Below, piece by piece: positions 5,560 to 29,315 of a DNA stretch of 32,961 nucleotides (position 1 is the first letter of the stretch; each line of letters opens with the position of its first letter). Source of the DNA: Desulfurococcales archaeon (GTDB lineage: Archaea; Thermoproteota; Thermoprotei_A; Sulfolobales; Desulfurococcaceae); the NCBI GenBank assembly GCA_027067785.1, contig JAMOVL010000041.1, positions 1 through 32,961 on the forward strand, read 5' to 3'. A program made the translations under genes and the position numbers. Below the pieces are notes generated by a model that was not told where the DNA came from, searched no databases, and saw nothing but the letters and a program-made list of their open reading frames with translations.

Positions 5560-6865
5560 TAGAAACAACAACGTAGAAGAGGAACTTCGTTCGAATAAAG
5601 AAGCATATGTTTTATCTATTTTCATATATGTTGCGTTCATAGTATCAATAGCCATGTCCATATATATGTTCTGGCAAACATATTTCTTATATCCAAACTT
5701 ATTAATCAAATTCAGCACATATTTTGTTTTGACAATATTCATATATATTGCTATAACAGAGATGTACGATCTGAACATTATGCTTTCAAAAATCAAGCTA
5801 TTCTCAGAATTGCTATATATTAATGTAGGCTATATTCTCATAGCTCTGAGCATTTTATTATCTGTGGACTTATTAACAGATATATTAACAAATATATCAA
5901 GTAGCTATGTTTATTTATTCACGATAACAGATATCATATTTATTCTAGGCGAAACAATCCTACTATATACCCTAGGAAGAAAAATATTGTCAGAACTCGA
6001 TCTAAAAAGGCTAATAGAAAGAATTTACGGCGACATATATGGACTCATAAGTAGTTTCTGGAAAAAGATCAAGAGATTAGACTTCTTTGCAGATACTACA
6101 TATTTAATATTCATGACGTTGCTAAACACCTACCTAGCAATAGGTTTTCAGGCAGTGAGGATATTCAGTGTCGTAACGGATCATATATCTATTAATTCTA
6201 TTCTGAACTGTCTAGTACTTATTATAATGATTAAGATCTTAATGTATTCGTTAACCATTTCATATATGACATATACCGGGGTAATACTTTCATCACAACA
6301 GAAGACTGAACTAAGAGATGTTCTACTTGCATTCAATAGACGTCAACCATTTATCGCGGCTATCTATTATAGGACAAATGACGAACTAAAGGATTATATC
6401 AAACATATTTTCAAAAACCCATTAAACGATGTAATCATAATAGTGCCATATGATCTTAAATCAGAGTGTGTGAAGTTTATCAAAGCTGTAGAGAATAATA
6501 ATACAGCTGTTATAATTTATCTGAGAAGCCAAATGGTTGCCCTTCAGAAACTGCCCATGTCAACAAATAAGAAGATATTCTACATAAGCTCGCCTCAATT
6601 TATGCAGATAAGCCATGTAATACGGGATGTCAGGCTTTCAGCTCCAACTTTAAGAATAGTATTTTGTCTAGTGGGTAAAGAGAGTGTAATCGAGAAATCA
6701 GGTACTACGACAGTCTACAGGTTTATTAGAAGTATACTAAACTATTTTTGTATAATTGGGTCTTCACGTGTGTTCATAGAATTTCTTGTTCCACAAAATA
6801 TTTCCAGCAAGATATTGGAGCTTTTATCACTAATTGTTCATGATAAATATACATTGTCTAAATAG
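5543..6865 (+). CDS. Polytopic membrane protein (about 6 TM segments by eye) with soluble C-terminal domain, possibly degenerate RecA-like/DUF835-like
   Basis: 440 aa; repeated hydrophobic segments in residues ~1-240 followed by soluble alpha/beta region with VYRFIRSILNYF..SRVFIEFLV; overlaps nreA end by 17 bp. Confidence 0.55.
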   Translation: MIFGINRNNNVEEELRSNKEAYVLSIFIYVAFIVSIAMSIYMFWQTYFLYPNLLIKFSTYFVLTIFIYIAITEMYDLNIMLSKIKLFSELLYINVGYILIALSILLSVDLLTDILTNISSSYVYLFTITDIIFILGETILLYTLGRKILSELDLKRLIERIYGDIYGLISSFWKKIKRLDFFADTTYLIFMTLLNTYLAIGFQAVRIFSVVTDHISINSILNCLVLIIMIKILMYSLTISYMTYTGVILSSQQKTELRDVLLAFNRRQPFIAAIYYRTNDELKDYIKHIFKNPLNDVIIIVPYDLKSECVKFIKAVENNNTAVIIYLRSQMVALQKLPMSTNKKIFYISSPQFMQISHVIRDVRLSAPTLRIVFCLVGKESVIEKSGTTTVYRFIRSILNYFCIIGSSRVFIEFLVPQNISSKILELLSLIVHDKYTLSK

Positions 6866-7049
6866 TAATGAATAATAAATATGTTTTTTGAAACCGTTGT
6901 AATGTATGAGAATATTTATCGGATACTGTTGCCGTTTGATTTTATGGAATAAATCAATATTTAGTCTCAGATACATACTAGTTATGTAGATGGAGCGAAA
7001 AAATATTATGCACAAGGAGTTTGCTTATGGGATGTATGGAGGGATTATT

Positions 7050-7790
7050 ATGAGTGTAATTGAAAAAATACCTACAGGAATCAAAGGATTTGACGAGATT
7101 ATTGAAGGGGGCCTGCCACGACCAGGTATAACATATATAATAGGTCATCCGGGCACAGGTAAGACCACACTGGCACTACAGATCCTCTATAACCGAGCGC
7201 TTCAAGGAGAAAAAGGAATGTATGTGTCGTTAACGGAAAAGAAAGAATCAGTTATCATGAGATATAAGAATTTCCCTGCATTCAAAAAACTAGAAGAATT
7301 TATCAATGAGAAAAAACTCATGTTATTCGAAGCCATACCAACTTATGGTCTCAGTAAGGATATGGTGATAAGCCTTATCGATGATGCATTTAACATTGCC
7401 CAAGAGAACGGGGTAAAGAATATCATATTTGATACAGTGACAAGTCTAACAATGTATCTTAAGAGAGACGAGGTACGTACGATTTTATCGTATATTAACG
7501 ATAAAATCTATAGCCAGAAGATAATGGGGATTATGATAGCAGAGCTCCCATTGTATAGCGAAGTAGTTAATCCTCCGAACGAGGAATTCATGTGTGACGT
7601 CCTAATAGTCATGGACTATGTATGGATCTATGCTGGGGCACCTAAGCTTGATGTGAGACTAATACCTGTTAAGAGCAGAGTAAGTAGAGTAGACAGGAGA
7701 TCGTATATTGCTGTGATATCACCGGAAACAGGTATAGAGGTAATAGGTACAATAGAGACGGAACATTTCACCCCATTCAGACAGGGATAA
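7050..7790 (+). CDS. KaiC/RecA-superfamily ATPase
   Basis: ORF open from 6990, but GGAGGG at 7038-7043 fits ATG 7050: MSVIEKIPTGIKGFDEIIEGGLPRPGITYIIGHPGTGKTTLALQIL (Walker A), NIIFDTVTSL (Walker B). Confidence 0.85.
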   Translation: MSVIEKIPTGIKGFDEIIEGGLPRPGITYIIGHPGTGKTTLALQILYNRALQGEKGMYVSLTEKKESVIMRYKNFPAFKKLEEFINEKKLMLFEAIPTYGLSKDMVISLIDDAFNIAQENGVKNIIFDTVTSLTMYLKRDEVRTILSYINDKIYSQKIMGIMIAELPLYSEVVNPPNEEFMCDVLIVMDYVWIYAGAPKLDVRLIPVKSRVSRVDRRSYIAVISPETGIEVIGTIETEHFTPFRQG

Positions 7791-7795
7791 CCTAG

Positions 7796-9331
7796 TTGAA
7801 CAACAGGTTTTCATCCTGTATACGTAGATCTATAAGGCATGCCCTCTTCATACCTTTATTCCTATTTATATTAATTATTCTAGTAACTGTTCTCTTCGTA
7901 TTATCGAGTTCAGGTACTACGATAATTGTTTCGCCTGATTTTCTCCTTATATCAATGATTGTTTATATGCTTTTCATCACACTATTCCTACGTGTTTACA
8001 ACTATGCTAAGACTGTTCTCGATATAGAGGTTTCGTGTGATATTATATCTTTGGAAAAACTCTTGTTTATCTACATCGTTACGATAATAATACCGTTGAT
8101 TTATCCAGTTAAAGAGAACTTATCATATGTCATAGACATATTTATAACGATAACAGCGATTATTGTACAACTACACTATGCATCCATATTATCAAGAATA
8201 TCGTATCTTATGGCTTCAACCTATAAATCGGGACAAGAGGAGACTCCAAGATTTCCGATGTATAGGTTTAGGAATATATGGCTTCTCCGAGGATTCATAG
8301 TTTTGGGAATCATACTTGTCCTAGCACTTTTTATATCTCTGAGATTTTTTATGTCCGGTATCAGCAATGATTACATAGTATTCATTGCCATCCTAACAAT
8401 ATTTTTTCTTGTATTATCAGGCATTTTGTCTATAAAATATAAGATAGCGAATGATCCGTATCGTGGCCTTAGATTTGCCTCCCTCTACAGGATGTTCACG
8501 ATCATGAATATGCTAGCAGTATTCATATTCTACGGAATCGCTACAGCAAGCACGAGAAAAATATATGGAACTATTGATCCGTATGTTGTATCATTTCTCG
8601 TCGAAACTGTTGCTGCTATGTTCATAATTGTTTATCTAAAGTACTCTCTCGACGATCTCATTGGATTGATAATAGTGTCCAAGGTTCCAGGGATAGCTAA
8701 GGAAGCCGGTATGCTTCCCATATATATGATTATACATGACATCCCTGTTATGGAGAGTATATCCAAGGTATCACACGCATTTAACGATATCTTAAGATCC
8801 ATATGGCTCGCTGGATTCCCTATAAACACGGTAATTTATATTTCGAAACCATATAGTCTTCTAAGAACAATGCTTCTTTTCAACTTTAACGAGACATTTG
8901 AAGAAGTCAAAGAAGAGATGACAAGTCTAGGTGAAGATTTCGTAAAAGTAGTTGGACCGCCTGAAGCCTATATATTTAATATAGCGTACCCAGTAGCTGA
9001 AACTCTACCACGTCCGCCGAGATATTATTTCAATATTAAAGTACATGAGAGAAACATTACGTTCGAGAGGATCTACTTAATACGTTCTATAATGAGCATT
9101 ATCAGAAAGTCGAAAGGTGTTCTATTAATAATAGAGGATCTATCTGATCTAATCAATATTAGTAGTTTCACGACAGTATATTCACTCATCAGAACACTCC
9201 TTTCCCTATTGAGACCAAACGTCGATGCAATGATCATAATCACGCCCGATTATAAGCCTCACGAACAATACATAAATGTTTTCAAGAACATAGCAAATAA
9301 CGTAGTGGATGTAACAAGATTATTAATCTAA
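7796..9331 (+). CDS. Polytopic membrane protein (about 8 TM segments by eye) with soluble C-terminal domain, possibly DUF835-like
   Basis: 511 aa, TTG start 6 bp after the KaiC-like stop; C-terminus KSKGVLLIIEDLSDLINISSFTTVYSLIRTLLSLLRPNVDAMIIITPDY resembles DUF835/KaiC-like folds. Confidence 0.55.
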   Translation: MNNRFSSCIRRSIRHALFIPLFLFILIILVTVLFVLSSSGTTIIVSPDFLLISMIVYMLFITLFLRVYNYAKTVLDIEVSCDIISLEKLLFIYIVTIIIPLIYPVKENLSYVIDIFITITAIIVQLHYASILSRISYLMASTYKSGQEETPRFPMYRFRNIWLLRGFIVLGIILVLALFISLRFFMSGISNDYIVFIAILTIFFLVLSGILSIKYKIANDPYRGLRFASLYRMFTIMNMLAVFIFYGIATASTRKIYGTIDPYVVSFLVETVAAMFIIVYLKYSLDDLIGLIIVSKVPGIAKEAGMLPIYMIIHDIPVMESISKVSHAFNDILRSIWLAGFPINTVIYISKPYSLLRTMLLFNFNETFEEVKEEMTSLGEDFVKVVGPPEAYIFNIAYPVAETLPRPPRYYFNIKVHERNITFERIYLIRSIMSIIRKSKGVLLIIEDLSDLINISSFTTVYSLIRTLLSLLRPNVDAMIIITPDYKPHEQYINVFKNIANNVVDVTRLLI

Positions 9332-11392: not shown

Positions 11393-14300
11393 TTACATTC
11401 CAAGCTCTCTTGTTCTCTCGAATAATTCCTTCGTAGCTTCGCCTACTTCTTTAGTGCCTGAGACTAGCTCTGCCGTTTCTGCGGCCTCTGTTTCTGGAGC
11501 CATTGACAGTACTTCTGCTTCTGTTCCTGTCTCCTTGAGCTCTTCTACAGCGCGCTTGTAGACTGCTGCTGGGTCGTAGTAGTAGTTGAAGATTATTCTT
11601 GATACATCCCATACGTTGGTGACTCCCTTGTAGAGCATCCAGTTGAGTATGGTGGCTTTCCTGTAGATCTCGTCGATTATGTCTTCTAGTTCTAGTCCGC
11701 TCTTCATAGCTATATCTCTGAGATGTATGCTTTTCTCCATGTCGATCCTGAAGGCGTCTTTCTTGGGATCCCACTGTGCGATCGTTATGTAGCGGTTGAA
11801 GTCCTCCACTTCTTGTATAACGGTCACTCTTCTCTGTACCTTGACGACACCTTTCTCAATACGTGTGATCACACGGCGTAGATGTATGAATATATTCATA
11901 AGCCTCATATATGTTGGCGGAATATTCATCGGCGGACTCGTCAGCCTCTTAATAGCGTAATCAAGAGTCTCGGCATGGATAGTTGAGTTGTGTGTTAGTA
12001 CTAGTCCTCCTGATATTGCGAACATATGCGTGCCCGGTACTTCGATATCATATAAAAGTGAATCTTTCTCTACGGTCTCTGTACGTATAACTTTATGTAT
12101 GTATAGCCCGTCATATTTCTTGACCTTAGTATAAGTTCTCTTCTTCAATAGTTCCCGCCTACCGAGTATTTCCAGTATTTTAACCTTGCTACTACCGCCG
12201 ATAATCGTTATAACATAGATTATGGATGATTTCTTTGCAAATCCTCTAGTATTATCAACTATTCTTAACGAAGCAAGTATATCCAAGCTTTTCAGAATCA
12301 CGATGATTGATTCGGCAAGTTTTCTATTTACAGTCCGAGCGTTTATACGTATATGTTTGTCTTTATCAACTATTACACTTCCATCTCCATCCCAATAACC
12401 CTCAATAATACCTCTGCGGAAGTCTTCTGGAGCTCTTAGAGCTAAGTCTAGTGGTACGCTACGTTCATAGTCATTGACTTTTCCTTGGAGTATTTCATAG
12501 ATTAGCAGTGCTAATGCTTTGGAATCAACATTTATGAATAGAATGTTGTCCTTCGTTTGTACTACATATATTGCTTCTTCGTCTAGCCCGATCCTTTTCA
12601 GTGTTTCAATGAACTTATTTGCTAATCTGGTGTCTTTACCCGGATATAGTACGATGCGTCTTGGTAGCCCGTCCTTGTCGTCATATTGTATTGTTCCATC
12701 TGCTAGGAAGAATCCTAAGATATAGCCGAAATTCCTGTCTAGTTTGATTCTTATCGGTATGGATCTTCTTCCTTTTTCTCCGTACTTTACTTTTCCATCA
12801 CTTAGCTTATCAGGGTGTATTCCTAGCTCTATGAATAATCTGTAGGGTATTGAGGCTTTTCCATAGTACCAATCATCAACATCACTAATTGATCTACCGA
12901 TCTTGGATGCAGTCTTACGGATTTCTCCTTTTCCATACTCCCTGAGTACTTTACTAGCATTTTCTATGTAGAGCTTGTCACTGTATTTCTCTAGAAGTTT
13001 AACTGCATTGATCTCATTTATTTCTTCATCAGTTAGTGCCAACGTTCTTAATGAAACAAGTAGGTCGCCCTTCTTAAGCTTGTGTGCTGGCTTGGTGGTC
13101 AGCTTTCCGTTCTCGAGGACGATCACTGGATGATTCTCGTGTACTTCATGTACGACGCCTCCTTCGAGATGTATTCTAACGAATCTATTTGATCCGTTCT
13201 TTACTACAACTCTTGAAACGGGTACCCATAGCGGTTTTCCATCTGAATATGTTAGGACTTTAAGATCTTTTACTTTGTTATCTATCACATCTTCGACTAG
13301 TTTTCCTATCTCGTATAGGTCTATACGTCCATTAACAGAAGCTAGTACTAGCTGGTCTCTCGGTAGACATAGGCCTCCGTGTCCTGTGGCTAGTGATTGG
13401 AAGAGCACAAACGCTTCTTCACCGCGAACCTCACCAACAATAATATAGTCAGGACGATAACGCAGGCTCAGCTTTACCAGATCGAACAACCTAATACTCG
13501 TACCACCCGAAGAGCCAACCAGGTAGCTCTCACGGCTCGTAAGCTGCACCCAGTTAGGATGAGGCAGGTTAATCTCAGGAGTATCCTCAACAGTAACAAT
13601 CTTCATACCAGGCTTGATAAACATCGAGATAACGTTTAGCAGAGTGGTGTTGTGGTTTAGCCTCCACCCTATCTGTCCTATGACGAAGTTATGCGTGTCT
13701 TCTACTTCGAAGTCGTAGAGATACTCATTTGTTGGTTCGACTTGTTCGATCCTCAGTATTTTCTCGCAGAATACATCGCCGATAACCAGTGATTCCATCT
13801 TGTCGAGTAGGGCTATTGCCTGGCTACCAGTTTTTGCCTTATAATATCCGATGAAGTCTAGAAGGTCTTCTCTATCAAGAGCTCTATATCCGTGCTCGTA
13901 CTGTCTAACGTATCTACTGGATAGCCCTAGTTCTTTCTCAACACGTTTCTTACCAATGCCGAGCCTACTCCTTATCTCTGCAAGCGCTGGGCCTACAGGG
14001 AATACATCTATGTTCGGGTTGGGCTGAACATCTGCATTATTACCGATAATCTCTTCGATCTTCTCTCTGGATATACTGTATTCTCTGAGCATAGCTATGA
14101 ATCTGGCCGCCTCGGAGCCATATATGATAACTCTGTATAACGGTGTGTTCTTGACAGGTTTTTCTTTGACTACGTGTTTTATACGCATCCTCTTCAGGAT
14201 CAAGGATATGCCGTTGGCGAGATCCTTAGACCTGGTTGAGAACCCAACTATGATCTCGTTCTTGCCGCTGCTCTTCTTGACGTACAGTGATCCATCTGCA

Positions 14301-15916
14301 TCGAATAGCCCGGCTAGGAATGCCTTTAGAACATCCGGATCATTATTGAACAATATTTCTTCGGGTATGCGGACGGTATAGCTCTTCTTTTCATTGAATA
14401 GCTTGGCTAGCTTAGCGGCTAGGTTTTCGTCGTTGAATCTAATGAGTAGTACTTCGTTCCTCTTGTCCACTGTAATATTGGGGGTTTTACCGTATAGTCT
14501 GCGTGCTATACTGATGTATTTCTCCTTAATGCTCTGATCCTTCGTTGTCAAGCATACCGTGGAGCGGTCGAGGTAGCCATCACCTATCCATAAGCCCAGG
14601 AAATATGCTTCCTCGGGCGAAACCCTGTATATACCGCCATAATCAGTGTTAAGCCATACGTTTACGAGGTAGTCTCCCTCTCTTATGTCCTGGGCTGTTA
14701 CAGGTACTAGTTCTAGTGTCTCAGGATCAAGTTTGATGAAGTTGTGGTCTATGGTCGTAGTTATTATTGATGAGTTCGTCACAACCTTCACTAATGCCCT
14801 GTTATCTCTGTGTTTAATGGCGCGAACTATGCGTTTCCATGTTAGCTTGTAGTCGTTATCTATGCTTAGGACCTCGATATTTTCTTCGACATCCTTAACT
14901 ATGTGGTCGCCTACACGGTATTCTCTTGATTTAATCATCTCGTATAGTTCATCGGCACGTACTATGCGTGGCTCCCCGTTTATCCTTGCTATGATAAGTG
15001 TGTCCCCAGGGAAGCTCTTACCGGTACCAGTGCCGCCGGCGATCATTGCTGTTTTGGCGTGTTCGATTAGTTCCCATAGGTAGGCTGCTACGAGTGTATC
15101 GAGTTCTCCGGACTGTATTATCTCTATGACACTGAACGGTCTCTCACGGAACTTACGTATTGTGAAGGTTGGCCCTTTGACTGATACTTCTCTTCCGAAG
15201 GTTGCTGCTAGCCTGTGTTTTTCCGGTAGCATTGCGTCTAGGATTGGAAATGCTATGCTGATGTGTTTGCCAGCCATGTGCGCCATTTTCATGATGAACT
15301 CGTTGAGGTAGTCTTCGTCGAGGAATGTTATGTTGGTCGGTATGCTCTCGTATTTCTTGTGCCATACGTAGATCGGTATGTTTACTCCGTTACAGCTTAT
15401 ATCCTCAATGTTCGGGTCTTTCATGAGCGGGTCTATCGGGCCGTAGCCAAGGAGGTTTCTCTCGATATAGTAGAGTAGCTTGATACGCCTAGCGCCTACT
15501 AGGCCTAGTTTCTGCTTGTACTTATCCGCTATGCGCTCTGCTTCTCTGAACACGTATCCCTTCAGGTCCTTTATGTCCTCGGGCTTTGTAGGCGGCTTGA
15601 TCTCGTCCATCAAGATCTCGGTGAGCTTCTCGAGGACCGCTCTATCTGTTGGTGTCAAACCGTATTCTTCGACAAAATACATTGGGCCCTGCGGTGTCTC
15701 GGCTATAACTACTTTGACGAACGGCTTGTAGACGTAGTAGCTCTCCATTATCCTCCAGCTAGGATCGCGGCGTGCCACCTGTATAGGCTCTGTAGGCATA
15801 ATGACGTGGCGTATAGCCTCCATCTCGGCCTGGCCAGCGCGGAGGCTCCTAGGCTTTCTCTTCTTACTCTTCTTGGTAAATACTCTGCTCTGCAAAATCT
15901 TCTTCAGTGAAGGCAA
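11393..15916 (-). CDS. Type II/IV secretion (archaellum/type IV pilus) ATPase containing two inteins; extein 590 aa
   Basis: 1507 aa; extein AGGTGTGK/TTLLN (Walker A), VTVEDTPEINLPHPNWVQL, YRPDYIIVGEVRGEEAFVLFQSLATGHGGL/STIHAETL (Asp, Walker B and His boxes of GspE/FlaI-type ATPases); TTG start. Confidence 0.9.
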   Translation of the reverse strand: MPSLKKILQSRVFTKKSKKRKPRSLRAGQAEMEAIRHVIMPTEPIQVARRDPSWRIMESYYVYKPFVKVVIAETPQGPMYFVEEYGLTPTDRAVLEKLTEILMDEIKPPTKPEDIKDLKGYVFREAERIADKYKQKLGLVGARRIKLLYYIERNLLGYGPIDPLMKDPNIEDISCNGVNIPIYVWHKKYESIPTNITFLDEDYLNEFIMKMAHMAGKHISIAFPILDAMLPEKHRLAATFGREVSVKGPTFTIRKFRERPFSVIEIIQSGELDTLVAAYLWELIEHAKTAMIAGGTGTGKSFPGDTLIIARINGEPRIVRADELYEMIKSREYRVGDHIVKDVEENIEVLSIDNDYKLTWKRIVRAIKHRDNRALVKVVTNSSIITTTIDHNFIKLDPETLELVPVTAQDIREGDYLVNVWLNTDYGGIYRVSPEEAYFLGLWIGDGYLDRSTVCLTTKDQSIKEKYISIARRLYGKTPNITVDKRNEVLLIRFNDENLAAKLAKLFNEKKSYTVRIPEEILFNNDPDVLKAFLAGLFDADGSLYVKKSSGKNEIIVGFSTRSKDLANGISLILKRMRIKHVVKEKPVKNTPLYRVIIYGSEAARFIAMLREYSISREKIEEIIGNNADVQPNPNIDVFPVGPALAEIRSRLGIGKKRVEKELGLSSRYVRQYEHGYRALDREDLLDFIGYYKAKTGSQAIALLDKMESLVIGDVFCEKILRIEQVEPTNEYLYDFEVEDTHNFVIGQIGWRLNHNTTLLNVISMFIKPGMKIVTVEDTPEINLPHPNWVQLTSRESYLVGSSGGTSIRLFDLVKLSLRYRPDYIIVGEVRGEEAFVLFQSLATGHGGLCLPRDQLVLASVNGRIDLYEIGKLVEDVIDNKVKDLKVLTYSDGKPLWVPVSRVVVKNGSNRFVRIHLEGGVVHEVHENHPVIVLENGKLTTKPAHKLKKGDLLVSLRTLALTDEEINEINAVKLLEKYSDKLYIENASKVLREYGKGEIRKTASKIGRSISDVDDWYYGKASIPYRLFIELGIHPDKLSDGKVKYGEKGRRSIPIRIKLDRNFGYILGFFLADGTIQYDDKDGLPRRIVLYPGKDTRLANKFIETLKRIGLDEEAIYVVQTKDNILFINVDSKALALLIYEILQGKVNDYERSVPLDLALRAPEDFRRGIIEGYWDGDGSVIVDKDKHIRINARTVNRKLAESIIVILKSLDILASLRIVDNTRGFAKKSSIIYVITIIGGSSKVKILEILGRRELLKKRTYTKVKKYDGLYIHKVIRTETVEKDSLLYDIEVPGTHMFAISGGLVLTHNSTIHAETLDYAIKRLTSPPMNIPPTYMRLMNIFIHLRRVITRIEKGVVKVQRRVTVIQEVEDFNRYITIAQWDPKKDAFRIDMEKSIHLRDIAMKSGLELEDIIDEIYRKATILNWMLYKGVTNVWDVSRIIFNYYYDPAAVYKRAVEELKETGTEAEVLSMAPETEAAETAELVSGTKEVGEATKELFERTRELGM
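11987..13369 (-). mobile_element. Intein 2 (461 aa, codons 850-1310) with LAGLIDADG (DOD) homing endonuclease domain, inserted after GHGGL
   Basis: Starts CLPRDQLV, B-block GVVHEVHENHPVIV, DOD motifs GYILGFFLADG and RRGIIEGYWDGDG, F-block LLYDIEVPGTHMFAI, ends VLTHN followed by +1 Ser; removal restores TGHGGLSTIHAETL. Confidence 0.92.
13649..15016 (-). mobile_element. Intein 1 (456 aa, codons 301-756) with LAGLIDADG (DOD) homing endonuclease domain, inserted in Walker A between Lys and Thr
   Basis: Starts SFPGDTLI, B-block TTTIDHNF, DOD motifs AYFLGLWIGDG and KAFLAGLFDADG, F-block YLYDFEVEDTHNFVI, ends RLNHN followed by +1 Thr; removal restores GGTGTGKTTLLN. Confidence 0.92.
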
Positions 15917-16128: not shown

Positions 16129-17916
16129 TTGGGTTTCTGGGACTGGGTTTACATGGTTTTCGGGGGTTTTGGCAAGAAAATACTTGAGATCTACCCTAAC
16201 CTCCCTGATCAGATAAGGAAAAGCGGTATGCATATTTACCCTGAGGTATACGCTTCTTTCGTAGCATTCATGACACTAGTCATATCTGGTTTCTCAGCAG
16301 TCCTAGCAGTACTCCTCATAGTTTTCAGGCTCCACTTCCTGATATTCATCCCTATACTTCTTCCCGCATTCAGCTTCGTGTTCCTCGTCTATTTCCCATC
16401 GATGCTCGCGAGTAGCCGTGCAGGAGGTATTGAGGGAGAATTCCCATATACGGTTGCATATCTAAGCATGATGGTTATGAGTGGCCTATCACCATACAGT
16501 GCTTTCGAAAGGATCACTAGGAGCAGGCGTGTCTTCATCAAGAGCAGTGAGCTTAGCCAGCGTTTCATACTGCTGGTTAGAGTACTGGGCCGTGACCCAT
16601 TATCCGCTTTCGCCATGCTGAGCGCACGCACACCGAGCGCCACAGTACGTGATCTCCTGATGGGCTATGTAACAACTGTCCGTGCAGGCGGCGATGTAGC
16701 CGACTACTTGACGAAGAAGGCTAGACTATTGTTCTCGGAGATAATCGTAAAGATGAAGATCATAGCCGATAAGCTTGCCAGCATACTGGAGGCCTACCTT
16801 GCGCTCGTCCTCCTTTCCATGATAAGCCTAACCGTGATGTACTTCGTAACAGTATCATTCGTCAGTGTGATTCCCTTCGGCCTAAGCCCGGGCGGGATGT
16901 TCCTATTCCTCTACGTCATGATGCCAATGATGTCCGCGATGATCATCTACCTAACGGATCTGATACAGTATAAGGAGCCGTGGGTAGATTATCGCCCATA
17001 CATAGTCTTCGCAGGCCTCTCCCTACCTCTAGCTGCTTATCTCTCAATCTTCGGGATCCTACTACCAAGTGTCCTACCGCCGGGTAACAGATTAAGAGAG
17101 AGCTTCCTCGTAAAAGGCCTCCACGACTTCCTAGCCCTACCAGCAACCCTCGTCCACGCACCGAGCTACGCTGTATCCAGCATACAGTTCGCACTAGTAC
17201 TCCTCATAGCAACACTCCCAGCAATGATATATTACGAGTACGTATCCCGCGAATACAAGGTAGTAAACGGGATAACATTGTTCCTTAGAGACCTGGTAGA
17301 AGTTAGGAAAACAGGTTTATCGCCCGAGAGATCAATAATCGAGCTCTCAAGAAGAAACTATGGAGCATTCACAAAGTACTTGAGGAAAATGGCTTTACAG
17401 CTAAGCCTAGGAGTACCCCTCTCAAAGATAATCGATGACCTGTTCAAGAAGATAATAGTGTGGAGAGCCAAAGTCCTTCTATACGTCCTCACCGACGCTA
17501 TAGAGGTCGGAGGCGGAACGATCGAGGTAATGGAGAACCTAGCATGGTTCGCGGAGAGCATAGATGCTATAGAGGATGAGCGTAAAAAGAACCTCCGCAC
17601 ACTACTCATAGTACCCTATATGGGAGGAATACTCACCGCAGCAACAGTAGTCATGCTGACAGCCTATCTCGGAAGCTTACCACTAAGTATGGGAGCGTTC
17701 GCGACCGCAGCAGCTATGACATTACCCTCAATCATACTCAACACTTACTTCATGGGATTAGTGGCTGGAAAAGTATCGGCTGGAAGTGTAGCCTCAGGAT
17801 TCAAGCACGCCTTCCTACTAACACTGATATCAATGGTACTCCTGCTCGCCTCGGGGATCATAGGATCACACTTAATGGTAACGCCCTCAGGACGCGCAGT
17901 AATACCGGGTGGATAA
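16129..17916 (+). CDS. Archaeal FlaJ/PilC/TadC-like pilus assembly membrane platform protein (two T2SSF-like domains)
   Basis: 595 aa; two repeats of the T2SSF pattern (AYLSMMVMSGLSPYSAFERI.. and LFLRDLVEVRKTGLSPERSIIELS.. followed by GVPLSKIIDDL) separated by TM clusters; TTG start with GGTGAT upstream. Confidence 0.85.
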   Translation: MGFWDWVYMVFGGFGKKILEIYPNLPDQIRKSGMHIYPEVYASFVAFMTLVISGFSAVLAVLLIVFRLHFLIFIPILLPAFSFVFLVYFPSMLASSRAGGIEGEFPYTVAYLSMMVMSGLSPYSAFERITRSRRVFIKSSELSQRFILLVRVLGRDPLSAFAMLSARTPSATVRDLLMGYVTTVRAGGDVADYLTKKARLLFSEIIVKMKIIADKLASILEAYLALVLLSMISLTVMYFVTVSFVSVIPFGLSPGGMFLFLYVMMPMMSAMIIYLTDLIQYKEPWVDYRPYIVFAGLSLPLAAYLSIFGILLPSVLPPGNRLRESFLVKGLHDFLALPATLVHAPSYAVSSIQFALVLLIATLPAMIYYEYVSREYKVVNGITLFLRDLVEVRKTGLSPERSIIELSRRNYGAFTKYLRKMALQLSLGVPLSKIIDDLFKKIIVWRAKVLLYVLTDAIEVGGGTIEVMENLAWFAESIDAIEDERKKNLRTLLIVPYMGGILTAATVVMLTAYLGSLPLSMGAFATAAAMTLPSIILNTYFMGLVAGKVSAGSVASGFKHAFLLTLISMVLLLASGIIGSHLMVTPSGRAVIPGG

Positions 17917-17919
17917 ACC

Positions 17920-19827
17920 ATGAAGAAACCCAGGAGGAGACAGAAAGCAGTAAGCGAAGTAATATCAACAGTGATCCTAGCTGCAACCGTGATAATGATA
18001 TCGCTCATAGTATTCTACTACGCTATGCTCTCCTTCCAGACAAGCAGTCTAGCAACACAGTTCGGCTACACGAAATCAGTCCTACTAGTCCTAGCGTCAA
18101 ACATTAACTATATACTAGCGGGAAACCAGTACTACGCAAACATACCTACAAAATCAGTAGGCGTGGGCTACAACCACACATCAACATACACTTTATCGAT
18201 TGGAATCCCAGCCTATAATATAACGATAAAGATCTATAATCCATTGAATAGGCCTCTCGAGAACTACCAAGTACTAGTATGGCTTAATTCAACCAATTTC
18301 CATGGATGGAAATACCTAAACATGACAGGTAATACTACAGACTTTATCTTCGTGGATCCAAACTACCATATACTCAGTTTCTACGTGCAAGAGTTTAACC
18401 CGGCTTCAGAGCAGGCGAAGATCTGGGTAAAGATACCTTATATCCCGAGTAACGGCTCGATAAACATTACGATGTTCTATGGAAATCCATCAATTAAGGG
18501 CACTAGTGACTTCTACGCTGTTTTTGACAAATTCTATGATGATTTTACATCTAATCCATATACTGATGGAAAATGGGTGATATTCAAAAATCTAGGTAGT
18601 AATACTTCTGCAGAGTTTGTCTGGGATCAAAAGCTAGGTATAGTAAATCTCACAACACTAGATACTGATCTAGGAACAATAGGTTTTGCCGCACAGAATG
18701 GGAAGCCTATAGAAGGTTTACCTGTAAGGGCTGTTATTAGGTATTTAGGAGGGAATCCCGCAAACCAGCCAGCTGATGGTTTTGCGTTTGCCTTTAACAA
18801 GAATATAACCACATACGAGTTGTATGCTGATAAATACAATGATAGCGGTCAAGGCGGCTCTCTTTATTTAGAACTATTTAAAGAGTACTCATCATCGAGT
18901 ATCAAGTTGATCAAATCTGATGGATATGCTTTGGTGCTCGACGCCTATCGTAATCTAAACACGCGTATTCCTCAATATTCTGACCCGCCAGTACCGTATG
19001 TAGCTATTGAAAGAACCAATGTGACATTCCCGTATCCCAAGATAGATAATAAGTATAACACTACGAGTATAGTTACTGATCTAAGATGGCATGTTATCGA
19101 GCTTAATATAGCGCCGGATTATTCTTATGCTAATGTAAGCATCGATGGCTATTTATCCAGCAATCTAACCAATATACGATTGCCAGGCATTATTCCTGGA
19201 TGCACTGGTTTTGGAATAGCGGCTGCGACTGGAGGGTTGTATGCATATTTTTGTGTTGACTATGTAGATGTTTATTACAGAAAATATTATGGCGTAGATC
19301 CGCAGGTATACGTGTATCCGGTAAATGGTACAGGTTATGCACCGATCTATACTATGGATTACCTAGGCATATATACGGCTGCCTACGCAGCCTTTACTAC
19401 GACGTGGCAAGTAGTCTATGGTACGAGTAACTATACTGTTGATGATATCAGGCTTCTGCCGAGAGTGGTTCAGTTCTATAAGGATGGTTTCACCTATGCA
19501 GAGCTCGACACTTTCAGGTTTCTTGTGAACAGATATGAAATAAGAACGGCTACTGGTACAACCACTAATACAACCTATATTATTAGCATGTTAGGTGTTG
19601 AGCTATCCCCCCAGATAATGTCTTCGAGCCCATCGCAGCTGGTAGTATCATATGCCGGAATAGCGTACACTAGATCATTTAACACTACTGGTCTAGCCGT
19701 GATAGTAAGTATTAATGGCCGGCATAAAATAACGGACCTAGCATCTCTATTGCCCGGCTATAAACCTCCCACATCGAGCATAGAGATATTCATAACTATT
19801 AAGAAGCTCAACGTGGTGTTCATCTGA
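17920..19827 (+). CDS. Large pilin-like surface protein with class III signal, DUF2341-like and lectin-like regions
   Basis: 635 aa; MKKPRRRQKAVSEVISTVILAATVIMISLIVFYYAM (class III prepilin-like); ITIKIYNPLNRPLENYQVLVWLNSTNF...SNGSINITMFYGNPSIKG typical of DUF2341; GFAFAFNKN and LRWHVIELNIAPDYSYANVSIDGYL lectin/LamG-like. Confidence 0.7.
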   Translation: MKKPRRRQKAVSEVISTVILAATVIMISLIVFYYAMLSFQTSSLATQFGYTKSVLLVLASNINYILAGNQYYANIPTKSVGVGYNHTSTYTLSIGIPAYNITIKIYNPLNRPLENYQVLVWLNSTNFHGWKYLNMTGNTTDFIFVDPNYHILSFYVQEFNPASEQAKIWVKIPYIPSNGSINITMFYGNPSIKGTSDFYAVFDKFYDDFTSNPYTDGKWVIFKNLGSNTSAEFVWDQKLGIVNLTTLDTDLGTIGFAAQNGKPIEGLPVRAVIRYLGGNPANQPADGFAFAFNKNITTYELYADKYNDSGQGGSLYLELFKEYSSSSIKLIKSDGYALVLDAYRNLNTRIPQYSDPPVPYVAIERTNVTFPYPKIDNKYNTTSIVTDLRWHVIELNIAPDYSYANVSIDGYLSSNLTNIRLPGIIPGCTGFGIAAATGGLYAYFCVDYVDVYYRKYYGVDPQVYVYPVNGTGYAPIYTMDYLGIYTAAYAAFTTTWQVVYGTSNYTVDDIRLLPRVVQFYKDGFTYAELDTFRFLVNRYEIRTATGTTTNTTYIISMLGVELSPQIMSSSPSQLVVSYAGIAYTRSFNTTGLAVIVSINGRHKITDLASLLPGYKPPTSSIEIFITIKKLNVVFI

Positions 19828-23408: not shown

Positions 23409-23490
23409 GCCAATACGCTAAAATATTGAAGACAGTACATTAAATATAAATTCATATGCTAGGAACGCGTAATACAAGCAGTAAACTATA

Positions 23491-23502
23491 AGCTTTTAAA
23501 CC
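23491..23502 (+). promoter_or_regulatory. Putative TATA box for pilin 1
   Basis: AGCTTTTAAACC about 57 nt upstream of ATG 23559. Confidence 0.4.
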
Positions 23503-23558: not shown

Positions 23559-24020
23559 ATGCGCGCTATATCGCCTGTTATTGCGACTGTTATTATTGTA
23601 TCTGTTGCGATCGCTATTAGCATTGCTGTGGCGTTGTGGCTCACCGGCATAACAAGCGGATTCACCCAGACGGAGGATTTGCAGATAGTATCGAGCTACG
23701 CGTCAGGAAACTCGACTGCAGGATGGAATATAACACTAATAGTAAAGAACACTGGGACTGTCGCTGCAACTATCGATAATGTCTTTGTTAATGGAAAGCC
23801 ATACAGTTCCCAGGGATTAAACGTATACGTCAACGGCACAGGTACGGGCGGAGTCTTCAAGAAATTCACGTCAACATACACGATCAATCCCGGCGACACA
23901 GCGACAATAAAGGTAGAGATACCCAAGAATACTTCGGGATTCACCGATGGCCAGATGGTTAACGTTAAGATACATACCGCTAGTGGCAGAGACTATCCGG
24001 CGACAGTAACACTTCCATAA
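23559..24020 (+). CDS. Archaeal type IV pilin, tandem array member 1 (P1)
   Basis: ORF track starts at GTG 23553; GGTGAG SD favours ATG 23559. MRAISPVIATVIIVSVAIAISIAVALWLTGITSGFTQTE, ending GQMVNVKIHTASGRDYPATVTLP. Confidence 0.85.
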   Translation: MRAISPVIATVIIVSVAIAISIAVALWLTGITSGFTQTEDLQIVSSYASGNSTAGWNITLIVKNTGTVAATIDNVFVNGKPYSSQGLNVYVNGTGTGGVFKKFTSTYTINPGDTATIKVEIPKNTSGFTDGQMVNVKIHTASGRDYPATVTLP

Positions 24021-24146
24021 ATTTATGTATACAATGATCGTAAGCCTAATATTTTTAAAACTTTTTACACTTTCAAATATTTCCTTCACTTTATAGTAGT
24101 ATTATGAAATGTAATCAATCAATAATACCCTGTGAATACTGAAAGA

Positions 24147-24158
24147 AGTTTTTAAAAC
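24147..24158 (+). promoter_or_regulatory. Putative TATA box for pilin 2
   Basis: AGTTTTTAAAAC about 52 nt upstream of ATG 24210. Confidence 0.4.
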
Positions 24159-24209
24159 AATTAAAGCCATAATATAGAAAGAAAAATAAGACGTATAAGG
24201 TGTAACGCT

Positions 24210-24659
24210 ATGAGAGCTATATCTCCGGTCATAGCAACAGTTATCATAGTGTCTGTTGCTATTGCGATCAGTATAGCTGTTGCATTATGGCTAACTGGTA
24301 TTACCAGCGGTTTTACACAGACGGAGAATTTACAAATAGTATCAAGCTATGCAACAGGTAATTCAACTACGCATTGGACAATAACTCTCCTAGTCAAAAA
24401 CACTGGTACAACCACAGCAACAATAGACAATATATTCATAAACGGTAAGCCATTTAACGATTATACAGGTGTATCTATAAGTATAAACGGAACAACATTT
24501 AATCCTGGAATTACCTATCCTATAAAGCCAGGTGATCATACTAATATAACAATAATTATCCCAGGATCAACTCAAGGATTCACAGATGGCCAGATGGTGA
24601 ATATTAAGATTCATACCGCGAGCGGTAGAGACTACCCCGTGACAGTAACACTACCGTGA
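24210..24659 (+). CDS. Archaeal type IV pilin, tandem array member 2 (P2)
   Basis: MRAISPVIATVIIVSVAIAISIAVALWLTGITSGFTQTENLQIVSSYA ... GQMVNIKIHTASGRDYPVTVTLP. Confidence 0.85.
   Translation: MRAISPVIATVIIVSVAIAISIAVALWLTGITSGFTQTENLQIVSSYATGNSTTHWTITLLVKNTGTTTATIDNIFINGKPFNDYTGVSISINGTTFNPGITYPIKPGDHTNITIIIPGSTQGFTDGQMVNIKIHTASGRDYPVTVTLP
24586..24637 (+). repeat. 52-bp exact repeat, copy A (C-terminal block of P2)
   Basis: ATGGCCAGATGGTGAATATTAAGATTCATACCGCGAGCGGTAGAGACTACCC, identical to 25299-25350. Confidence 0.9.
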
Positions 24660-24852
24660 AACCCGGAAGTACCATATATAATAAAGGTAGGAATACGATG
24701 GCGTTTTCCACTATGTCACACTTTAGGGGGAGACATTGTAATTATTTTTTCTAATCTTGAACGAAACAAACAAGTAATATTTAGAAGACTCCTTTATTAA
24801 CAAAATGCGAATGTTATCAATAAATATAGTGAAAAACAAGAATATTATCTTG

Positions 24853-25000
24853 TAGGTGAATGGTTATGAAGGCTATATCCCCGGTTATTGCTACGGTTAT
24901 TATTGTCTCTGTCGCTATTGCTATTAGTATTGCTGTGGCGTTATGGCTGACCGGTATTACTAGTGGGTTCACTCAGACAGAGAACCTACAAATAGTATCA
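24853..25000 (+). repeat. 148-bp perfect direct repeat, copy A (SD plus signal peptide plus N-helix of pilin 3)
   Basis: Base-for-base identical to 25487-25634 (offset 634); no evident homology immediately upstream. Confidence 0.93.
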
Positions 25001-25372
25001 GCGTACGCGACATGGAATGATACATTAGCTGTTTGGAATGTTACGCTAACAGTAAAGAATACTGGTACCACTGCTGCGACAATAGACAATATATTCATAA
25101 ACAATAAACCAATAACTATATCATCCTCCGAAAGTTATATAGGAAAAGTTATTAATATCACGAAAATAACCATTGATCCCGGTGAGCAATCCATAATTTC
25201 TATATATTTAACAAACTATACTGCTACCAATACTAACCAATTATTCAGTTCTTGGAATATACCGAGTACTGTATTACAGGCGCTATCTGGTTATACTCAT
25301 GGCCAGATGGTGAATATTAAGATTCATACCGCGAGCGGTAGAGACTACCCTGTAACAATAACATTACCATAA
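24866..25372 (+). CDS. Archaeal type IV pilin, tandem array member 3 (P3)
   Basis: ORF track starts at 24860; AGGTGA SD at 24854-24859 favours ATG 24866 (MKAISPVIATVIIVSVAIAISIAVALWLTGITSGFTQTENLQIVSAYA ... GQMVNIKIHTASGRDYPVTITLP). Confidence 0.85.
   Translation: MKAISPVIATVIIVSVAIAISIAVALWLTGITSGFTQTENLQIVSAYATWNDTLAVWNVTLTVKNTGTTAATIDNIFINNKPITISSSESYIGKVINITKITIDPGEQSIISIYLTNYTATNTNQLFSSWNIPSTVLQALSGYTHGQMVNIKIHTASGRDYPVTITLP
25299..25350 (+). repeat. 52-bp exact repeat, copy B (C-terminal block of P3)
   Basis: Identical to 24586-24637. Confidence 0.9.
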
Positions 25373-25486
25373 CCAAAACCCATTATTTTTTAAATTGAAC
25401 TAATTTTAATCAAAATACAGATGAAAAATATAATATTATACATGTATAATAGGATTTAAAATCCTTATAGACAAATAACCTAATCA

Positions 25487-25634
25487 TAGGTGAATGGTTA
25501 TGAAGGCTATATCCCCGGTTATTGCTACGGTTATTATTGTCTCTGTCGCTATTGCTATTAGTATTGCTGTGGCGTTATGGCTGACCGGTATTACTAGTGG
25601 GTTCACTCAGACAGAGAACCTACAAATAGTATCA
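25487..25634 (+). repeat. 148-bp perfect direct repeat, copy B (SD plus signal peptide plus N-helix of pilin 4)
   Basis: Identical to 24853-25000. Confidence 0.93.
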
Positions 25635-26117
25635 AGCTATGCCCAGGTTGGAAACTATTATAACTTTACAGTTAATAATACAAAGCCACTAAACTACACT
25701 TTATTATTTGGAGTAGGTAATTACTACTGGGGTCTCTATACAAACAACTGGACAAGTTTCAATCTAACATACCCGAATGTTGCCAAAGCGACTATTAATG
25801 TAACAAACTTAGTACATGGTTCATCCTGGTTTCCATCGAAAAATGGTACAGATGGATGGGTTATAAGAATAATGATTAAGAATACTGGTACTGTTCAAGC
25901 AACTATCGACAATATATTTATAAATAACGTACCATTATCAAATGCTGCAGGCGTTGTATGCTATAATGGTACATCGGCAAGTATTGCGTCAGGTAAAGAA
26001 CTGCAGATTCTAATATTTCTCGAAAGCGGTACACACTTCTCTTCTGGCCAGATGGTGAATATTAAGATTCACACCGCGAGCGGTAGGGATTATCCGACGA
26101 CGATAACTCTGCCGTGA
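25500..26117 (+). CDS. Archaeal type IV pilin, tandem array member 4 (P4), with about 65-aa N-glycosylation-sequon-rich insertion
   Basis: ORF track starts at 25494; SD favours ATG 25500. Same N- and C-terminal blocks as P1-P3; insertion between the LQIVSSYA block and the IKNTG block. Confidence 0.85.
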   Translation: MKAISPVIATVIIVSVAIAISIAVALWLTGITSGFTQTENLQIVSSYAQVGNYYNFTVNNTKPLNYTLLFGVGNYYWGLYTNNWTSFNLTYPNVAKATINVTNLVHGSSWFPSKNGTDGWVIRIMIKNTGTVQATIDNIFINNVPLSNAAGVVCYNGTSASIASGKELQILIFLESGTHFSSGQMVNIKIHTASGRDYPTTITLP

Positions 26118-27151
26118 TGGTGGTTTAGTGTATTTGTTTTTTTGGCTTTGATTAATACTATTTTTTCATCTCTTCTTGCTTTTCTTGTTGGTGGGGGTAG
26201 TATTATTGTTGTCTGCATGGTTTTTACTGCTATGATCTTGTAGGTGTGTTTTGGGTCTTGCTGGTTTAGTTGTTGTTCTATTTCGGCTAGTGTTTTACCG
26301 TCTTGTTGGTCTGTGATTCTTTGTTCTATTAGGTCTGCTGTTCCGCGACGTGTTGTTAGTTCTTTGATTACTTCTAGGACTGCTGGTTCGAATACGCTGC
26401 TGGCTATTGTTCTTCCTAGTAGGCGTGTTGATAGTGTGTGGTGGGCTCCTGCTTGGCGTAGTAGTTCTTCTGTCTCTGCATTCTTGGCTATTGCTGAGAT
26501 CTTTGCTGTGGGGTTTATTTTGCGGAGCAGGAGTGTTAGGTGTATTGCTTGGCTGTCTTCACGGCTACATATTATCAGGTGTTCTGCCTTGTCTGCCCCG
26601 GCTTTGCGCAGGGTTTCCTCGTCGGCTAGCTCGCCGACCATATAGTCTACTCCGGGGTCTCGTTTGGGCTGGCTGGATGTGAGCCAGCCGGCCTCATCCT
26701 CTAGGCCGTTAAGCCTTAGCTCATCGATAACCTCGTAACAGGACTCATCGTCACCGATAACTAGTATCTTCTTGTTCCTCAACGGAGCCAGCCCCAATAA
26801 CTTCTTCATACTTGCTTGTAGGAAGGCATCAGCTATAACTGATACTGTCAACGTATAGGCGAGTATACCCATAACCGCCGTGAATCCAGCCACGAGCCAT
26901 CCAACACCACGAGTAGGCACTATGTCTCCATAGCCTATCGTCGCCATTGTTATAATGCTCCAGTAAAGACTAGCCCAGATATCAATATCTCTCCGCCCAG
27001 CCAATACGTGCTCCGAGTAATAGAAGAGCAACGCACAGACAATCCACATCGAGAGGAAGAAACCAGCAACAAATACCAGTCGAGAACGCAGTATTTTTCC
27101 TGGTTTTCTCTTCAGTCTTCGCAGTATCTTATAGATTATGCTGACAACCAA
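26090..27151 (-). CDS. Two-TM potassium channel with TrkA-N (RCK) and TrkA-C-like domains (MthK-like)
   Basis: 353 aa; pore LYWSIITMATIGYGDIVPT (selectivity filter TIGYGD); KKILVIGDDESCYEVIDELRLNG Rossmann; C-terminal RCK_C-like region; TTG start. Confidence 0.9.
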   Translation of the reverse strand: MVVSIIYKILRRLKRKPGKILRSRLVFVAGFFLSMWIVCALLFYYSEHVLAGRRDIDIWASLYWSIITMATIGYGDIVPTRGVGWLVAGFTAVMGILAYTLTVSVIADAFLQASMKKLLGLAPLRNKKILVIGDDESCYEVIDELRLNGLEDEAGWLTSSQPKRDPGVDYMVGELADEETLRKAGADKAEHLIICSREDSQAIHLTLLLRKINPTAKISAIAKNAETEELLRQAGAHHTLSTRLLGRTIASSVFEPAVLEVIKELTTRRGTADLIEQRITDQQDGKTLAEIEQQLNQQDPKHTYKIIAVKTMQTTIILPPPTRKARRDEKIVLIKAKKTNTLNHHHGRVIVVG

Positions 27152-27298
27152 TGCTTAGACACCATAGATGCGTAAATAACATACAAGCACTAATTATATA
27201 TCTTCGTATCCCGTTGAAATATGAACTAATAAACAAATATATTGTTTGCACCCAAGTGCTCATGAATTGGTTCAAGATCTAAAATGGAGGTGATAGTA

Positions 27299-27928
27299 TT
27301 GTCCAGCTCCAAGACAAGTATTGCCGTCTTAATTATAATTGTTATCATAATAGCCGGAATGATAGGCTACTACATAGGACGTACTAGTACCACTAATAAA
27401 CAAGCAAAGATAACACCATCCAAACAATTAACTACAACCCAGGCTCCCCCTACAAGAACAAATACATTATCAACAACTACGACTACGCCACATGAAAATC
27501 TAGAGGTAATACCGAGCTACCCCATATACACCAAGAATATAAAGTATCTACCAGATAAGAACGCTTACATGGTTCTCGAAAAAGGAAAAATAATTAAGAT
27601 AAAAGGACTAATTAACGGGCTCTCCCACAACGCTACATTAGGCAACGGAACAGCCGGGTGGCTCGTAACAATAGTGATTAAGAATACTGGCCCGATATCT
27701 GCGAGAATAACACAAATATACTTGAATAATATTCCCATAAATAAAATGTTAGGAGTAATCGCCTATAACGGAACAGACACTGTGATAAAACCCGGTGAGA
27801 CCAGAACACTATACATAATCCTCCAAAAGGATGGCACTAAAATAATGTTCACACCCGGCATAATGGTGAATATTAAGATTCACACCGCCAGTGGCAGAAC
27901 ATATCCAACAACAATAGTACTACCATAG
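27299..27928 (+). CDS. Chimeric pilin-head protein (P5): non-pilin membrane anchor plus Ser/Thr-rich linker plus pilin globular head
   Basis: ORF track starts at 27284 but GGAGGTGA 27286-27293 favours TTG 27299: MSSSKTSIAVLIIIVIIIAGMIGYYIGRTSTT..., C-terminal IVIKNTGPISARITQIYLNNIPI...MVNIKIHTASGRTYPTTIVLP matches pilin heads. Confidence 0.75.
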   Translation: MSSSKTSIAVLIIIVIIIAGMIGYYIGRTSTTNKQAKITPSKQLTTTQAPPTRTNTLSTTTTTPHENLEVIPSYPIYTKNIKYLPDKNAYMVLEKGKIIKIKGLINGLSHNATLGNGTAGWLVTIVIKNTGPISARITQIYLNNIPINKMLGVIAYNGTDTVIKPGETRTLYIILQKDGTKIMFTPGIMVNIKIHTASGRTYPTTIVLP

Positions 27929-28073: not shown

Positions 28074-29315
28074 TCATGGAGCCCTAATATTAGCAGGATA
28101 CTTGTATCCTGATGACGAATGCACTATTATAGAGTACAACGTCCCAGGCGACACATTAGGCGACACCAACACCAATACAGCTTTCTGACCAGGCATCAAT
28201 GTATATGGTAGTGGATGTCCAATGACGATCACTACTTGAACAACAGGCTCCAAGGCAAAACCTATATCTGAATATAAATGAATATCTAGGGTATTATTGT
28301 AATAATAGTCTTTTTTATCAGTACCGTTATATGAGAGCGTTAAGATATCCTTGTTGTTAAAATCATAGGAAATGATTGGCGTGTTATTAGTATATATTGT
28401 AAACCTATCTATATCAAGACTATAATCAATTTGTATAGGCACACTCCCTATAATTGCGGGTACATCTAATTCTTGAGAATACACTATTACTCTCCATATA
28501 GTTATATTAATAGCATTCGCAACAAGGCTCTTGTATAGCGGAACATTGTCCACAACGGGTTTACCATCCAAGAAGAAGCTTATCCGCCATAAGCTCAAAT
28601 TACTATAAGTATAGATGTTGACCCTTAGGTCATGCCAATTACGAACGGCTACAATACCGTTAAGATCTACGTTTTTAGAATAGAGTGTAACCCATCCGGA
28701 TCCGGATTTATGCAACATTATACTGAGTTGTTTATAATTAGCACAATATGAGACACTTAATGTATATATATTAATTGTGCCATTATTAAATCCAACTTCA
28801 TAGTTAAAGACTAGATCATATGTGTACATAGTGTAATTTACATTACCTCCAACACTATAGCTGAAATTATCATATCTTGCTACATAGTCTATAGTGAATG
28901 ATATCGGATAGGTATAGGTAGTATCAATATATCTACCTATACTCTCGCCACAACCACATTCATTGCTTGCAGTTCCATTTATATTTACATGTATATTTAG
29001 ATAGCCTTTATTCAGGTCTTGCGGGTTAAAGTTCTCCTCATTGACGAAAAAGGCCTTGAAGCCCATCTGGTTGTAGGGCTTATTATCGATGAATATGTTA
29101 TCGATTGTTACTGGGCGTGTGCCCGTGTTTTTGAGGTAGAGTATCATGTAGTAATTGCTGTTATATTTCATACAATATGTATCGTATATGTCTAGTCTCT
29201 CTATACCTGTATAGCCCGTTATAATCCCTGAAACCCATAAGGTGATGACAACTGTGATTGAGAGTGTTACAGCGACTATGATAACTGTTGCCACGAGAGG
29301 GGATAGGGCACGCAT
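28074..29315 (-). CDS. Divergent archaeal type IV pilin (P6) with about 290-aa insertion, possibly LamG/lectin-like
   Basis: MRALSPLVATVIIVAVTLSITVVITLWVSGIITGYTGIERLDIYD...LYLKNTGTRPVTIDNIFIDNKPYNQ ... LYSIIVHSSSGYKYPANIRAP; insertion contains NWHDLRVNIYTYSNLSLWRISFFLDGKPVVDNVPL. Confidence 0.75.
   Translation of the reverse strand: MRALSPLVATVIIVAVTLSITVVITLWVSGIITGYTGIERLDIYDTYCMKYNSNYYMILYLKNTGTRPVTIDNIFIDNKPYNQMGFKAFFVNEENFNPQDLNKGYLNIHVNINGTASNECGCGESIGRYIDTTYTYPISFTIDYVARYDNFSYSVGGNVNYTMYTYDLVFNYEVGFNNGTINIYTLSVSYCANYKQLSIMLHKSGSGWVTLYSKNVDLNGIVAVRNWHDLRVNIYTYSNLSLWRISFFLDGKPVVDNVPLYKSLVANAINITIWRVIVYSQELDVPAIIGSVPIQIDYSLDIDRFTIYTNNTPIISYDFNNKDILTLSYNGTDKKDYYYNNTLDIHLYSDIGFALEPVVQVVIVIGHPLPYTLMPGQKAVLVLVSPNVSPGTLYSIIVHSSSGYKYPANIRAP

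Follow-up and report, generated by a model that had tools for sequence, protein, structure and literature searches.

The window, meaning the whole analysed stretch of 32,961 nucleotides from a draft genome of a Desulfurococcales archaeon (81% complete), holds four pilin genes, P1-P4, arranged head to tail (23559-26117) and immediately following the genes for pilus assembly:

P1, 23559..24020, + strand: 153 aa, complete open reading frame, class III signal MRA-ISPV
P2, 24210..24659, + strand: 149 aa, complete open reading frame, AlphaFold2 model showing a helix (6-35) and a beta-sandwich head
P3, 24866..25372, + strand: 168 aa, complete open reading frame, lengthened loop ahead of GQMVN
P4, 25500..26117, + strand: 205 aa, complete open reading frame, sequon-rich insertion of about 64 residues at the beta1-beta2 tip

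A 48-residue N-terminal block (N-block) and a 23-residue C-terminal block (C-block) are common to all four, and the stretch between them differs. The N-terminal, core and C-terminal motifs quoted in an earlier sequence-only reading of this DNA were all recovered as written, and its claimed spacing of roughly 130-200 bp agrees with intergenic gaps of 189, 206 and 127 bp. Each copy carries a class III signal, M[RK]A-ISPV, with a predicted prepilin-peptidase site before a hydrophobic helix, comparable to the cut signals KAIS of UpsA and RALS of AapA (PMC4371748), and an archaeal prepilin peptidase is encoded in the same genome. In the list of open reading frames, P3 and P4 each start 6 bp upstream of the coordinates above (ATGGTTATG), but translation more likely begins at the second ATG in both, since a GGTGA ribosome-site motif abuts the first. 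The similarity among P1-P4 is far beyond chance, as 27 of 40 family genomes have homologues at E <= 1e-10, the named homologue records being Desulfurococcales draft genomes.

The surroundings of the array comprise the following features:

11393..15916, - strand: PilB/ArlI-type assembly ATPase, PF00437 in pieces, two inteins
16129..17916, + strand: PilC/TadC-type platform protein, PF00482
17920..23408, + strand: five genes in the same orientation, probably encoding minor pilins or tip proteins
26090..27151, - strand: TrkA-type ion channel gene that converges on P4; it also flanks the pilin in G001
28074..29315, - strand: P6, large pilin of 413 aa with a RALS signal, overlooked by the sequence-only reading

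The earlier claim of one assembly machine is borne out insofar as PilB, PilC and the minor-pilin genes lie directly upstream of P1-P4, and the PilB/PilC gene order is kept in G001, a relative of the same genus, and in G005. The ATPase spans 1507 aa and contains Intein_splicing and LAGLIDADG_3 domains in two stretches each, while its orthologues in G001 and G005 measure about 597 aa, uninterrupted and free of inteins. The five small genes follow the same order in both relatives, and a minor-pilin or tip role is probable by analogy with PMC4858521. The first of them (17920-19827) has an N-terminus resembling that of pilins, a DUF2341 domain and a weak match to L-type lectins, and its product may be a tip adhesin; its 19 sequons exceed the number in every one of 2000 shuffles. 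The TrkA-type channel gene marks the right border of the array, and its 3' end overlaps that of P4 by 28 bp (26090-26117), the corresponding overlap in G001 being 14 bp. Upstream of the pilus locus, a KaiC-type ATPase gene lies between two membrane protein genes (5543-9331); it stays adjacent to the pilus locus in G005 and is a possible regulator. Elsewhere in the genome, on contig C1 (L100 13273-16755), genes for a further pilin, a secretion ATPase and a membrane protein stand in a row as another type IV pilus-like system, so that a one-to-one pairing of machine and pilus cannot be taken for granted.

The assignment of P1-P4 as pilins rests on fold, signal and locus. The AlphaFold2 model of P2 (mean pLDDT 93.6) predicts a long helix (residues 6-35) followed by an Ig-like beta-sandwich head, and by this model P2 is a type IV pilin; Foldseek places 8q30 first (E 4.8e-7, TM about 0.6), ahead of other archaeal pili. 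Foldseek and profile searches alike rank the Sulfolobus acidocaldarius Aap pilus first and a Pyrobaculum pilus second, with further matches to other crenarchaeal pili and Iho670, and the profile search gives significant homology to solved pili; weak profile matches to annexin and other PDB entries were taken as chance. The Pfam search returned no confident pilin call for any of the four, the short N-terminal models being narrowly missed (Pilin_N on P2, 19.7 bits against a cut-off of 25.2; TIGR02537, 15.5-15.8 against 20). The nearest family model for P1 and P2 is UpsA (E 1e-11), and all four score 33.6-44.7 bits on the UpsA equivalog NF046073, below its cut-off of 130.

Variation is concentrated in three regions of the predicted head. 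Over 33 homologues, mean entropy stays low in the N-block (0.63) and the C-block (0.88) and rises at the beta1-beta2 tip (3.06), in the middle (2.66) and in the loop preceding GQMVN (2.27). The big length changes in the same alignment fall within these regions: the P4 insertion sits at the beta1-beta2 tip, where it is modelled mostly at low confidence, and the length gain of P3 falls in the loop before GQMVN. Because both entropy and length changes are concentrated in these loops, the block pattern is that of the usual pilin architecture, in which the tail and core strands are kept and the surface loops are free to change. Three large pilins of G033 (273-278 aa) carry about 130 extra residues at the insertion site of P3, in which Pfam finds no confident domain:

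L055 768-1601: large G033 pilin
L056 236-1057: large G033 pilin
L056 1159-1995: large G033 pilin

The sequence-only reading had also singled out the N-x-S/T sequons of the P4 insertion, and enrichment in sequons holds for P4 only. Seven of its eight sequons lie within the insertion (residues 49-116), and their number exceeds the composition expectation (shuffle p=0.016); P1-P3 have 3-4 sequons each, not above what shuffles give, and enrichment as a general property of the array was dropped. A homologue of the STT3-type oligosaccharyltransferase is encoded in the genome of the window.

The locus was also compared among relatives. In G001 the order from PilB and PilC through the five minor genes to TrkA is the same, with a single pilin at the position where the window has four; PilC is 93% identical between the window and G001 and likewise between the window and G005, which shows one pilin on a contig that ends just past it. 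Copy number differs between species (four against one in G001), which speaks against the invariant array that the sequence-only reading had named as its refutation, at the species and not the strain level. Just one further copy of the locus, on G002:C89, comes from what has to be the same population; it is identical over 4,782 bp and begins inside P4. At least two such pilins are found in each of G028, G033, G018 and G023, with the N-block in the version of their own lineage. Contigs that end inside a pilin N- or C-block are G002:C89, G012:C45, G016:C31, C6, C8, C16 and C76 of G031, and G033:C480; such ends are what near-identical copies would produce by breaking an assembly, so pilin numbers in drafts are probably underestimated, with further copies hidden. 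Both a loss of copies in G001 and a gain in the lineage of the window are possible. G018 also contains a broken pilin copy with an internal stop (L052 7946-8736, - strand) beside intact copies in both orientations. A viral source of the pilins is unsupported; viral contigs yielded one distant relative (L131 4001-4393, 35% identity) on an 18-kb IMG/VR contig, which may itself be host sequence.

Upstream of the individual genes, three TATA-like elements can be pointed to:

23490..23499, + strand: AAGCTTTTAA, TATA-like promoter element of P1, RAGYTTTTAA at -69
24146..24155, + strand: AAGTTTTTAA, TATA-like promoter element of P2, RAGYTTTTAA at -64
25454..25461, + strand: ATTTAAAA, possible TATA-like element of P4, weaker than those of P1 and P2

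The RAGYTTTTAA element occurs in 6 of 39 upstream regions (about 0.07 expected), namely those of P1, P2, the G001 pilin, the G005 pilin and two Thermogladius-type pilins; P3 and P4 lack it, and the TATA-like sequence of P4 differs from it. The suggestion of such elements before some copies is therefore clear for P1 and P2, plausible for P4 and unconvincing upstream of P3. The further suggestion of separate promoters stands in a narrower form: with the shared element absent from P3 and P4, separate control of at least P1/P2 versus P3/P4 is likely from these motifs, and co-transcription of P2 and P3 is possible because a promoter of P3 is not evident. T-runs follow each of P1-P4 and could be archaeal terminators.

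These features are probably, though far from surely, best explained by P1-P4 being interchangeable major pilins of one type IV pilus, comparable to PilA1-6 of Haloferax and chosen by their promoters. The upstream PilB/PilC machine would polymerise any of the four; the near-invariant tail of the N-block would pack the filament core and be recognised by the machine; the near-invariant C-block would form core strands of the head beta-sandwich; and the variable segments, as surface loops, would set adhesive, recognition or glycan properties. Separate promoters, with P1 and P2 sharing an ancestral element that P3 and P4 do not have, would choose the composition. Indirectly, the single pilin of G001 speaks for an ability of each pilin to form pili alone. 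The same data might instead describe a mixed filament, in which at least two of P1-P4 would be expressed together and assemble into one heteropolymer, as ArlB1 and ArlB2 of Methanocaldococcus villosus do in its archaellum; this is the main alternative, possible but rather doubtful. With near-identical tails, heads that differ and one extra, putatively glycosylated loop, P1-P4 follow the M. villosus pattern (PMC8821640), and the promoter element common to P1 and P2 allows for their joint expression; yet P3 and P4 lack that element, and a single pilin suffices for the machine in G001, where the same machine is accompanied by one pilin, so that the machine has no need of a fixed filament of four parts.

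The evolutionary history of the array combines old copies with mosaic ends. The N-blocks of P1, P2 and P3 encode near-identical protein while differing pairwise at 14-18 of 25 fourfold sites, and whole-gene silent divergence among the three (0.58-0.67) approaches that between species (about 0.65-0.7). As silent sites have diverged under a near-identical protein, these copies are, judging from their sequences, old, with the N-block held by selection. Against this background, two pairs of exact tracts stand out:

24853..25000, + strand: 148-bp exact P3/P4 tract, first copy, starting 12 nt ahead of the ATG and reaching codon 45
25487..25634, + strand: 148-bp exact P3/P4 tract, second copy, starting 12 nt ahead of the ATG and reaching codon 45
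24586..24637, + strand: 52-bp exact C-block tract, P2 copy, common to P3
25299..25350, + strand: 52-bp exact C-block tract, P3 copy, common to P2

Silent differences between P3 and P4 number 0 of 43 inside the 148-bp tract and 20 of 47 elsewhere (p=2.1e-7), and those between P2 and P3 number 4 of 20 in the C-block and 41 of 77 elsewhere (p=0.011). The mosaicism anticipated by the sequence-only reading is thus present in the DNA of the array itself. Fixed codon choice was ruled out as the cause of the exact tracts, since P1 differs in the same blocks. In G033, two pilins are exactly alike over their last 73 bp and differ at 30 of 135 positions of the N-block. The simplest reading of these patterns is segmental recombination or gene conversion of the end blocks.

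Conversion tracts, together with identical terminal blocks around variable middles, also bring to mind a switching store, in which the extra copies serve as recombination donors to one expressed locus, as pilS does for pilE in Neisseria. Such an arrangement is very improbable here, given that each copy is complete, with its own start, ribosome-site motif and upstream region, and that the detected tracts lie in the ends and not in the middles; phase-varying switching from silent cassettes is unsupported for the same completeness of P1-P4.

Trees of the heads add a second layer to this history. P4 pairs with the single G001 pilin (support 97/91), and one head type is common to G028 and G033 (99/98); because these heads pair across species, the head types seem older than the species. 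The trees speak against monophyly of the P1-P4 heads without firmly rejecting it (AU p 0.0096 when long branches are kept and 0.067 when they are removed), so a recent expansion is possible; a simple recent expansion from one copy to four was rejected, as silent divergence among P1, P2 and P3 is close to that between species and P4 pairs with the G001 head. Taken together, the array appears from these comparisons to evolve by duplication or loss and by recombination in the end blocks. It is also conceivable, if improbable, that P1-P4 are redundant paralogues, which provide dosage or are drifting, with ends kept for fold and assembly and heads varying as unconstrained loops. Structure alone predicts the observed conservation pattern, and the broken copy in G018 would fit such redundancy, but the four genes have all stayed intact over a long divergence, and head types are retained between species. 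For interchangeable major pilins, the repertoire would change by tandem duplication, loss and end-block gene conversion, such that heads diversify and ends stay alike.

Beyond the pilins themselves, the same type of head occurs on membrane stalks:

27284..27928, + strand: P5, pilin head with an unrelated membrane anchor and Thr-rich linker, missed by the sequence-only reading
L082 875-1399: stalked head G033:C454
L087 5695-6183, - strand: stalked head G029:260697

The P5 head is of the P1-P4 type and ends in MVNIKIHTASGRTYPTTIVLP, its N-terminus differs from the pilin N-block, and its anchor and Thr-rich linker resemble, by eye, those of the neighbouring solute-binding protein. The three stalked heads come from three genera and have different anchors, each head being like the pilin of its own lineage (that of G033:C454 has 83% DNA identity to one G033 pilin), and in all three the stalk joint lies near the same border between N-block and head. 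More distant anchored heads occur in G021, G009 and G029. A head that forms a mobile module in two formats, on tails and on stalks, is a possible but unlikely reading; if true, stalked heads could bind the pili of sister cells, as possible partners in self-recognition, or could act as decoys for pilus-binding viruses.

The idea of a surface-variation repertoire, as put forward in the sequence-only reading, accordingly retains its shared ends, varied loops, upstream machine, species-level change in copy number and mosaicism; that the four serve as alternative pilins, assembled by one machine under separate regulation, is what we infer from them. As a case from hyperthermophilic archaea, in which the tail and end strand of major pilins are kept alike and heads diversify, the array offers DNA evidence of recombination at module borders together with a natural control in the single-copy relative of the same genus. 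It makes testable a change of pilus surface through the choice of subunit, which has been inferred for Haloferax, as well as the effect of such choice on cell recognition or virus attachment. In UpsA, it is a segment of low conservation that makes aggregation species-specific (PMC7064770), and in Sulfolobus islandicus PilA1 or PilA2 is required for infection by many viruses (PMC7217056); by analogy, partner recognition or virus pressure could act on head diversity in P1-P4.

Among known systems, PilA1-PilA6 of Haloferax volcanii have a conserved H-domain, each forms pili alone and adhesion differs among them, and four of the six are predicted to be N-glycosylated (PMC4371748). The likeness lies in a shared tail, different heads and one machine, PilB3/PilC3 in Haloferax, whose pilin genes are not co-regulated with the assembly genes; P1-P4 differ in their tandem position beside the assembly locus, their shared C-terminal block and their DNA conversion tracts. 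UpsA/UpsB and AapA/AapB of Sulfolobales are similar in that UpsA is the nearest family model and the Aap filament the nearest solved structure, and are dissimilar in gene order, in the four copies and in the sub-cut-off UpsA scores of P1-P4. Neisseria pilE and pilS have a constant N-terminal part, a variable remainder and gene conversion; P1-P4, by contrast, are all complete, with no silent truncated cassettes and with conversion in the ends. ArlB1 and ArlB2 of M. villosus have identical tails, different heads and a glycosylated extra loop in one of the two (PMC8821640), but are archaellins of the archaellum, whereas P1-P4 belong to a pilus locus and are known from their genes.

Archaeal major pilins are already known to undergo tandem duplication. 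In the 2016 census by Makarova, Koonin and Albers (PMC4858521), which treats PilA families, major pilins are often in tandem and prone to tandem duplication, assembly in any combination is considered possible, and Desulfurococcales loci have 3-4 extra minor-pilin-like components; mosaic end blocks, head trees and stalked heads were not found in the portion consulted. To this picture of tandem duplication, the locus described here adds mosaic end blocks, a single-copy relative and stalked heads.
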